The notes beneath the pieces were generated by a model. The model saw nothing but the letters and a program-made list of their open reading frames with translations. It was not told where the DNA came from and made no database searches. From Thermodesulfobacterium sp. (GTDB lineage: Bacteria; Desulfobacterota; Thermodesulfobacteria; Thermodesulfobacteriales; Thermodesulfobacteriaceae): a stretch of DNA of 64,000 bases. The stretch is from positions 124,001-188,000 of the forward strand of contig JACDNX010000004.1 in the NCBI GenBank assembly GCA_017656385.1, written 5' to 3'. A program made the position numbers and the translations under genes. Positions 58,399-60,981 of the stretch are shown here, piece by piece (position 1 is the stretch's first letter; each line of letters opens with the position of its first letter).

Positions 58399-59769
58399 CT
58401 ATTCCTCCACCTTTTTTACCTCTACCAAAAGTTTACCTTTTGAAAGATAAATTTCCAACAATTTTCCTTCTTTAACTTCCTTAGCTTTTCTAATAATTTT
58501 ACCTTCTGGATAAGATTTTACTATACTATATCCTCTTCTTAAAACATTTAAAGGTGAAAAAGAGCTTAGCAATTTCTCCAAGCTTTCTAATCTTTTTTCC
58601 TTTTCTAAATAACAGGATTTGATGGAATAAAAAAGTCTATTTTTAAAAAATTTTAATTTTTCTTCTAAAATTCTTATATTTTCCTGAGGATGCCTTTTTC
58701 TGAAAAGGTTTTTTATTTCCCATAATTTTTTTTCTTTAAAACCCAAATACTTTTCCATCTCTAAGTTTAATCTATAGGAAAGATCTTTAATTCTTTTTTC
58801 CAAACTCTGAACAACTTTAAAGGGATTTTTGTTCTCAAGTTCTATTTTAGCTTCATAAAGCTTTTTTTCTCTTCTGGAAACGATAATTTCCAGAAGCTGA
58901 TTGATTTTTTTCTGATAAAGACTTAATCTATAGAGGACTTCTTCCTTTGCTGGTATAACCTCTTCAGCTGCAGCTGTAGGAGTAGCACATCTTTTATCTG
59001 CGATCAAGTCACATATAGTATAATCTACTTCATGCCCCACAGCTGAAACTACAGGAATTTTAGATTCCTTTACGCCAAGGATAATATCCTCAGTATAAAA
59101 TGGTGCCAGATCCTCAAAAGACCCTCCCCCTCTTGTAATTACAATAACCTCCACATCACTGAAATGGGTATTTATATCTTTTATTGCCTGAACTATTTCT
59201 TTTTCAGCTCCTTCTCCCTGAACCCTTACTGGATAAATAAGTATTTCTACCTCCCACCTGTTTTTGCTTATTTTTAAAAAATCTTGCAAAGCTGCACCAA
59301 AAAGAGAAGTTATAAGAGCAATTTTTTTTGGATAAACAGGGATAGACTTCTTTCTATTTGGATCAAATAGTGGCTTATACTTTTTTATAAGTTCTTCTTT
59401 TTTTAGAGTTAAAATCCCCTTTCCTAAAGGTTCTACTCTTCTTACTATAAAATAGCATTCTCCAGAACGAGTATAAAAATTTAGTCTTCCCCAACATAAA
59501 ACTTTTAATCCATCCTTTAAGTAAGGAGCAATAGTAACTTCTTTCTGAGAATTAAAAATTATAGACTTAAGAGAAGCTTCTTCCTCGATCAGATTAAAAT
59601 AGATGTTGCCATTTTGACTATATCTTAAATTAGCAATTTCTCCTTCTATCCACAATACAGAGAAATTTCTTTCTATAAGATCTTTTAAATTTTGAGTAAC
59701 TTCTTTTACAGTGAAATATAATTTTTCTTTTTCTTTTACACCAATTTTTGTCTCTTCTAAATATTTCAT
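58399..59769 (-). CDS. xseA: Exodeoxyribonuclease VII large subunit XseA
   Basis: XseA is the catalytic subunit of the exonuclease that degrades single-stranded DNA. The N-terminal OB fold reads FSVLWIEGEIANLRYSQNGN with IYFNLIEEEASLKSIIF. The nuclease domain has PKKIALITSLFGAALQDFL, VIVITRGGGSFEDLAPF and SAVGHEVDYTICDLIADKR, followed by a long coiled coil and the C-terminal LRRGYSIVKS. It has 456 residues, a normal length. It opens the xseA-xseB-ispA-dxs operon. Confidence 0.95.
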   Translation of the reverse strand: MKYLEETKIGVKEKEKLYFTVKEVTQNLKDLIERNFSVLWIEGEIANLRYSQNGNIYFNLIEEEASLKSIIFNSQKEVTIAPYLKDGLKVLCWGRLNFYTRSGECYFIVRRVEPLGKGILTLKKEELIKKYKPLFDPNRKKSIPVYPKKIALITSLFGAALQDFLKISKNRWEVEILIYPVRVQGEGAEKEIVQAIKDINTHFSDVEVIVITRGGGSFEDLAPFYTEDIILGVKESKIPVVSAVGHEVDYTICDLIADKRCATPTAAAEEVIPAKEEVLYRLSLYQKKINQLLEIIVSRREKKLYEAKIELENKNPFKVVQSLEKRIKDLSYRLNLEMEKYLGFKEKKLWEIKNLFRKRHPQENIRILEEKLKFFKNRLFYSIKSCYLEKEKRLESLEKLLSSFSPLNVLRRGYSIVKSYPEGKIIRKAKEVKEGKLLEIYLSKGKLLVEVKKVEE

Positions 59770-59822: not shown

Positions 59823-59851
59823 TTGACTTAATATTTTACTTTTTTTAAAAT
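59823..59851 (+). promoter_or_regulatory. Strong leaderless-type promoter of the HARP gene
   Basis: TTGACT (59823-59828), a 17-base spacer and TAAAAT (59846-59851) are the best promoter hexamers in the window. The ATG at 59860 comes 8 bases later, where transcription should start, and there is no Shine-Dalgarno. The mRNA is therefore predicted to be leaderless. Confidence 0.75.
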
Positions 59852-59859
59852 TACAATCT

Positions 59860-60441
59860 ATGGAAAAAGAAAGACTTGTCCCAGATACAAGTATTTTTAC
59901 CAATCCTGATGTTTACGCACAATTTGGGAAAAATCCCTCGGAAGCTTTTACCAATTTCCTCTTAATGGTTGCTGAATTAGAAGGTGAGGTTGCAGTCTAT
60001 ATTCCTACCTCTGTTTTTGAAGAATTAAAAAGAATGCTAACAAACCTTAAACTTCCTCCAAAGGCTCGTTCGGTTTTAAAAATAAAATCTCCCAAAAAGT
60101 ATGAACTTTACATTCCTGCTTTTTTGATGTATGAGTTTATTGAAGAGTTACGAAATAGAATTAACAAAGGTTTAAGAGTGGCTGAGGAAGCTGTTAAATC
60201 ATCAACCTATAAAAAACCAGAAGAAGTTTTAAAGTTTTTAAGAAAACGCTATAGAGAGGTTTTGAGAGAAGGGATTGTAGATAGTAAAGAAGATTTAGAG
60301 TTAATCCTTCTTTCTTTAGAGCTTGATGCAATAGTTCTTTCTGCTGATAGAGGAGTTTTAAATATGGCAGATAAATTAGGACTAAGGTATCTGGAACCAA
60401 AAGATATAAAAGACACTCTTGAAGGTTTTAAATTCTGGTAG
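59860..60441 (+). CDS. HARP: protein-only RNase P homologue (PIN domain; RNA ligase partner/UPF0278 family)
   Basis: This 193-residue PIN-domain protein matches the HARP family whose Aquifex aeolicus member is a minimal RNA-free RNase P that trims tRNA 5' leaders; older annotation calls the family RNA ligase partner or UPF0278. Diagnostic segments are VPDTSIFTNPDVY, YEFIEELRNRINKGLRVAEE, and REGIVDSKEDLELILLSLELD followed by SADRG. The putative metal-binding Asp residues are 9, 141, 145 and 163, with the Aquifex spacing. The helical insert at about 85-135 mediates oligomerisation in known HARPs. It stands alone, is probably leaderless, and its stop abuts the lptE stop. Confidence 0.9.
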   Translation: MEKERLVPDTSIFTNPDVYAQFGKNPSEAFTNFLLMVAELEGEVAVYIPTSVFEELKRMLTNLKLPPKARSVLKIKSPKKYELYIPAFLMYEFIEELRNRINKGLRVAEEAVKSSTYKKPEEVLKFLRKRYREVLREGIVDSKEDLELILLSLELDAIVLSADRGVLNMADKLGLRYLEPKDIKDTLEGFKFW

Positions 60442-60981
60442 TTATTTGATTTCTACATCTTTAAACATAATATCCTGTAAAATAATGTCTGCTATATCTT
60501 TGGCAAGAAGCTTTAAAGCCTCTTCTCTACCAGGGTCAAGAACATTGGTAGCTTCTACAGGGACACGATATATCTCATATCGACTTAAACTTCCCTCTAA
60601 AATCACCTTTTTTTCTCTTTTCTCTATAAGCTGATACTTCCCTTTAAAACTAATCTTTCTTTCCTTGGTCTGAATAAAAGTTTCATAAGACACAGGTACT
60701 AAATAAACTTTTGTGATTTCTCCTTTCAATATTAAATCCGCTTTAGATTCATCATATACAGGCATTAAAAATTTACCCTGAGCTAATTTATGTCTTAATT
60801 CATAGGCAAGCATTTCTCCTAAAGCAGTTTCTGAAGTAAAATTTTTCCAAGGTGCAATGTAAACAGTTTGCCATTCTGGTCTGAAATAAGAAGGTCTTTC
60901 AAAAAATTGATAACCACAAGAAGAAATAAAAAGACTAAGAAACCACAAAATTAATAAGTTTCTTAGGTACAAAAACCACAT
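60442..60981 (-). CDS. lptE: LPS-assembly lipoprotein LptE
   Basis: LptE plugs the outer-membrane LPS translocon LptD. A signal peptide with lipobox ([10 protein letters not shown], lipid Cys near residue 22) is followed by the LptE core [24 protein letters not shown], then [20 protein letters not shown] and the late block [19 protein letters not shown]. It is 179 residues. The start codon lies 47 bases inside the leuS 3' end, an unusually long same-strand overlap that covers most of the signal peptide. leuS-lptE is a common gene order (with holA next in many genomes). Here it ends against the HARP gene. Confidence 0.88.

Follow-up and report, generated by a model that had tools for sequence, protein, structure and literature searches.

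A protein-only RNase P (HARP) gene in Thermodesulfobacterium sp., its promoter, and its relation to RNA-based RNase P and the ligase Rnl3

The HARP gene and its predicted product

The window, a stretch of 64,000 nucleotides of the thermophile Thermodesulfobacterium sp., belongs to contig C4; the genome, 1.67 Mb in size, has a completeness rating of 100%. The window harbours an open reading frame (ORF) for a HARP, the small protein-only type of RNase P originally discovered in Aquifex, which lies between two neighbours that are not part of the system (Table 1). The junction of HARP with the lptE-like gene is conserved across Thermodesulfobacterium and Caldimicrobium.

Table 1. Coordinates of the HARP gene, its neighbours, its promoter hexamers and the motifs of its product within the window
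Feature	Position	Strand	Remarks
xseA	58399..59769	-	divergent upstream neighbour, outside the system
-35 hexamer TTGACT	59823..59828	+	TTGACY conserved in Thermodesulfobacterium and Caldimicrobium orthologues
-10 hexamer TAAAAT	59846..59851	+	17-nt spacer from -35; ends 8 nt before ATG 59860
HARP gene (protein-only RNase P, PIN_5/TIGR03875)	59860..60441	+	193 aa, ATG start, TAG stop
D9-T10-S11, first catalytic motif	59884..59892	+	Aq880 D7-T8-S9; alignment
Spike (protruding) helix insert, residues 87-136	60118..60267	+	alignment and AlphaFold model; elbow site per PMC8405995
D141-S142-x-E144-D145, central catalytic motif	60280..60294	+	Aq880 D138-S139-x-E141-D142; alignment
D163, fourth catalytic Asp	60346..60348	+	Aq880 D160; alignment
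lptE-like gene	60442..60981	-	convergent, outside the system; stop abuts HARP stop

The ORF matches the Pfam family PIN_5 over its full length (194 bits) and TIGR03875 with 188 bits (cut-off 95). All seven distinct PDB sequences that it matches are HARPs (best E 1.3e-54). The nearest HARP is that of Thermodesulfobacterium sp. AUK151, with 98% identity. Together with the fold and the conserved residues described below, these matches bear out the identification proposed by the sequence-only reading. The ORF is a real HARP and a further member of an already known kind of enzyme; what is new here is the uniform retention of HARP in the order Thermodesulfobacteriales, the start mode of the gene and the location of its ligase partner Rnl3.

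Similar to Aquifex aeolicus Aq880 (PDB 7f3e/8kd9), the predicted protein has the length, the spike helix and the fold of the family (Z 21-22), although the two are only 42% identical. The eight active-site residues of Aq880 are all conserved (D9, T10, S11, D141, S142, E144, D145, and D163), and the four catalytic aspartates proposed earlier at positions 9, 141, 145, and 163 do align with Asp7, Asp138, Asp142, and Asp160 of Aq880. The seven basic residues that contact the tRNA elbow are conserved as well, namely R98, R100, K103, R106, R128, R132, and R136, which correspond in this order to R94, R96, K99, R102, R125, R129, and R133 of Aq880. Mutation of R125 or R129 in Aq880 abolishes or nearly abolishes activity (residue functions: PMC8405995, PMC8266387). 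K119 and R123 of Aq880 are replaced with E122 and F126 in the Thermodesulfobacterium HARP; the R123 position is variable among HARPs, and glutamate at the K119 site also occurs in the HARP of P. bacterium, which is active, though weakly.

An AlphaFold model, built from 15 sequences with a pLDDT of 85, predicts a PIN fold with a two-helix insert (helices 87-114 and 120-136). The C-terminal helix required for oligomerisation is present in the model (residues 180-192). The closest solved structure is the HARP of a Planctomycetes bacterium (PDB 7e8k/7e8o; 46-48% identity), and the model superposes on the tRNA-bound form along its full length (TM 0.88, rmsd 2.2 A). With the model as query, every structure match at E <= 0.001 was a HARP, and the VIA Z score was 22.9 for HARP versus 10.9 for the top-scoring PIN protein other than a HARP. 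The spiked-helix fold, whose absence would have spoken against the assignment, is therefore predicted for this protein.

Promoter and translation start

Scanning the region for consensus promoters yielded three sites, against 2.9 expected, and a single match is thus no better than chance. A promoter by consensus alone was therefore rejected, and the region was compared among orthologues instead. The comparison comprised 17 HARP orthologues, some of which are closely related and hence not all independent. Twelve of the 17 possess a TTGACY-type -35 hexamer, a spacer of 16-17 nt, and a -10 hexamer TA(A/T)AAT ending 6-8 nt before the start, with TTGCTC as the -35 in one and TAAACT as the -10 in another. 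Shine-Dalgarno sequences are absent in these twelve. The promoter score of each of the twelve was reached by 0-7 of 300 shuffles, and among the window's 48 long ORFs two scored as high, HARP itself being one of them. Since xseA is the upstream neighbour in this genome and in G270 only, the promoter stayed with HARP while the neighbour changed.

As far as sequence can tell, the layout is that of a leaderless gene, with the -10 hexamer 6-8 nt before the start, no Shine-Dalgarno sequence, and conservation across species. The HARP mRNA is accordingly predicted to be leaderless or to carry a leader of 0-2 nt, and the earlier proposal of a leaderless start is probably right, as this layout is conserved across most orthologues of Thermodesulfobacterium and Caldimicrobium. 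The HARP gene of T. hydrogeniphilum shows this arrangement too. In G227 and G028, further species of the genus, HARP has a Shine-Dalgarno-led start instead.

A different start region was found in Thermosulfurimonas (g172) and the neighbouring genus g173 (L042-L047, including Thermosulfurimonas dismutans), where a Shine-Dalgarno sequence, six bases, and AUU or AUC occur in all six genomes. In four of these six, no ATG, GTG or TTG precedes the catalytic motif of HARP, which suggests that AUU/AUC is a conserved rare start codon in both genera. Rare starts can bring genes under the control of IF3, as described for sigR with its GTC start (PMC5472188), and such control of the g172/g173 HARP is put forward here only as a suggestion.

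RNA-based RNase P and the ligase Rnl3 in the same genome

The same genome also encodes the RNA-based RNase P. The class A rnpB (298 bits) spans model positions 1-367 and is thus full length, with its conserved blocks intact, e.g. GAGGAAAGUCC and ACAGAAC..GGCUUA, and rnpA was found with 102 bits. The sequence-only reading had left two alternatives, HARP as the sole RNase P or two RNase P types in one organism. Because rnpB and rnpA are both present, the first was rejected and the second holds. This is a difference from Aquifex, which lacks rnpA and rnpB. Thermodesulfatator indicus (PMC10941002), of the same order, likewise combines the two RNase P types in a single cell; the HARPs, however, are about 64% identical, and the start region in Thermodesulfatator lacks the leaderless promoter layout. 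The coexistence of both types in this lineage is already known and not new, as the literature lists Thermodesulfobacteria among the lineages with both (PMC10941002).

The system bears on why two unrelated kinds of RNase P are kept in one cell. According to the same review, both enzyme types can contribute, or are potentially active, in T. indicus, and archaeal HARP knockouts grow normally (PMC10941002). Since the RNA-based RNase P is complete and probably the main enzyme of tRNA 5'-processing, HARP would be an auxiliary or specialised nuclease. We are confident of this reading, in which a complete and very probably active HARP works beside the RNA-based RNase P and in which its mRNA, leaderless or almost so, arises from a conserved promoter dedicated to the gene. 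By analogy with the solved HARPs, this small PIN-domain metallonuclease with a spike-helix insert would dimerise and then oligomerise; one dimer would grip the tRNA elbow while a neighbouring dimer cuts the 5' leader, and cleavage would leave 5'-phosphate and 3'-OH ends. Some bacterial HARPs oligomerise, yet failed to cut pre-tRNA (PMC12153264), so that pre-tRNA cleavage may be secondary. The 3'-CCA content of tRNA genes was considered as a gauge of how well HARP fits its substrates, but the loci examined contain only four such genes, an insufficient number.

The gene had been described as standing alone, which is correct for its immediate surroundings but not for the genome as a whole, since an unlinked partner is present. 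This partner is the RNA ligase Rnl3 (TIGR01209, 323 bits; PAB1020-like), encoded on contig C2. Genomes with HARP usually carry Rnl3, and in bacteria the ligase gene lies beside HARP in 80% of cases (PMC12153264). Similar to that partnership (Seshadri and Gopalan 2025), both genes are present here; however, they are not co-localised, and Rnl3 follows rtcA. Taking a linked pair as Rnl3 abutting HARP or lying within 5 kb of it, the two genes are unlinked in this genome, unlike in many planctomycete loci, where HARP adjoins Rnl3. Among 80 named HARP loci, the ligase adjoins HARP in 44, tail to tail, and all 44 belong to the 55 loci outside the order. No Rnl3 was found near HARP in the 25 named loci of the order (flanks of at most 6 kb, in some loci shortened where the contig ends), and where genomes of the order are closed, 74 kb to 1.0 Mb separate the two genes, except in G247. 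Within the order, the latter genome alone still has the tail-to-tail placement of HARP and Rnl3 that is seen in other phyla (G247:C1:332328-333956; L049/L088).

The rtcA gene of this genome was identified with RTC (226 bits) and TIGR03399 (315 bits), and Rnl3 overlaps its end by 14 bases. This pair is located at L004:363-2562 (G000:C2, about 119332-121531), and similar arrangements occur in L084-L087, L089-L091, L094-L102, L104, and L107-L112. In the order, rtcA is found on 25 of the 30 ligase loci, directly upstream of the ligase in nearly all. The classical bacterial RNA-repair operon pairs RtcA with RtcB (PMC7790460); the neighbour of rtcA in this genome is an ATP-dependent ligase of another chemistry than RtcB. 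RtcA does not appear in the paper on HARP and Rnl3 (PMC12153264), and in the one paper found to name both RtcA and Rnl3, the passages concerned mention no link between the two genes.

A possible, though less probable, reading is that the main job of HARP is to supply RNA ends for Rnl3 in circularisation or repair, with RtcA providing further end-processing and pre-tRNA cleavage being a side activity. PIN nucleases yield 5'-phosphate and 3'-OH ends, which are the ends joined by Rnl3. Within the order HARP never occurs without Rnl3, since 36 of the 41 genomes carry both, two incomplete drafts carry the ligase only, and three carry neither. The published co-occurrence (PMC12153264), the tail-to-tail loci outside the order, the presence of Rnl3 in this genome and its overlap with rtcA also point in this direction. 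However, HARP and Rnl3 lie far apart in the order, G247 excepted, and RtcA forms 2',3'-cyclic ends, which block the joining of such ends to a 5'-phosphate by Rnl3-type ligases (PMC5599603). The link with rtcA may therefore reflect control of the ligase rather than HARP. The published version based on C/D-box processing does not fit the order, because it needs fibrillarin, which reached the family cut-off in none of the 41 genomes; sub-threshold matches of about 20 bits cover stretches of 40-85 residues and look like generic methyltransferase similarity. C/D-box processing for circularisation was therefore rejected.

A more speculative extension, which we regard as rather unlikely, is that HARP, the ATP-dependent Rnl3 and RtcA of Thermodesulfobacteriales might form a dispersed system of RNA cutting, end-processing, and sealing for non-tRNA substrates without C/D-box machinery, in which the ligase would have left the side of HARP and taken the classical place of RtcB beside rtcA. 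That HARP and Rnl3 have separated yet are retained together, and that rtcA adjoins Rnl3, offers a concrete test of the role of the ligase in bacteria without fibrillarin.

Distribution and inheritance in the order Thermodesulfobacteriales

The order was surveyed in 41 genomes, 30 of them of good quality. HARP was present in 36 genomes (28 of the good ones), rnpA in all 41 (30 of 30), and rnpB in 33 (27 of 30). In Thermodesulfobacterium and Caldimicrobium, rnpB is located just upstream of engB. The contig of one draft ends inside rnpB (G263:C62, end of L230), that of another begins inside the neighbouring engB (G269:C47, start of L232), and in G268 and G278 engB is missing as well as rnpB. Contig breaks in or beside rnpB mimic its absence in drafts and can lead to mistaken claims of HARP-only genomes; the candidates G263, G269, and G278 were rejected on these grounds. 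With the gaps in rnpB traced to broken contigs or to the additional lack of engB, no HARP-only genome is demonstrated among the 41 genomes. For HARP to be this organism's sole or dominant RNase P, with rnpA and rnpB as relics, is very improbable. In Aquificaceae HARP is indeed the only RNase P (PMC10941002), and rnpB was not found in eight of the 41 genomes; however, rnpB is full length here with all conserved blocks present, rnpA occurs in every genome of the order, and the good-quality rnpB absences (G263, G269, G268, G278) do not demonstrate a loss.

A full HARP was detected in 12 of 247 sampled genomes of the phylum, nine of which belong to Thermodesulfobacteriales. Because HARPs from the order group in a single clade (support 100/99) and HARP is rare in the rest of the phylum sample, the sequences indicate vertical retention and not patchy gain. 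PIN_5 falls within the VapC structural group (PMC12153264), but a VapC-like toxin with Rnl3 as its antidote is likewise very improbable, as the two genes are unlinked, HARP has its own conserved promoter, and it has been kept vertically across the order, unlike a mobile toxin-antitoxin pair. The auxiliary or specialised role of HARP beside the RNA-based RNase P is preferred. Since HARP is near-universal in the order and forms a single clade, and most genomes also hold both subunits of the RNA-based enzyme, the order is a natural setting for separating the jobs of the two enzymes.

Two genomes deserve separate mention. In G268, a draft of this genus with 99% completeness, HARP, Rnl3, rnpB, and engB are all missing; HARP and the ligase may truly have been lost together, or the binning may have left a gap. 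G134 encodes a very divergent HARP-like protein (L015:1453-2049; 35% identity, branch length >3), which keeps the catalytic residues but has H and T in place of two residues that are conserved elsewhere.
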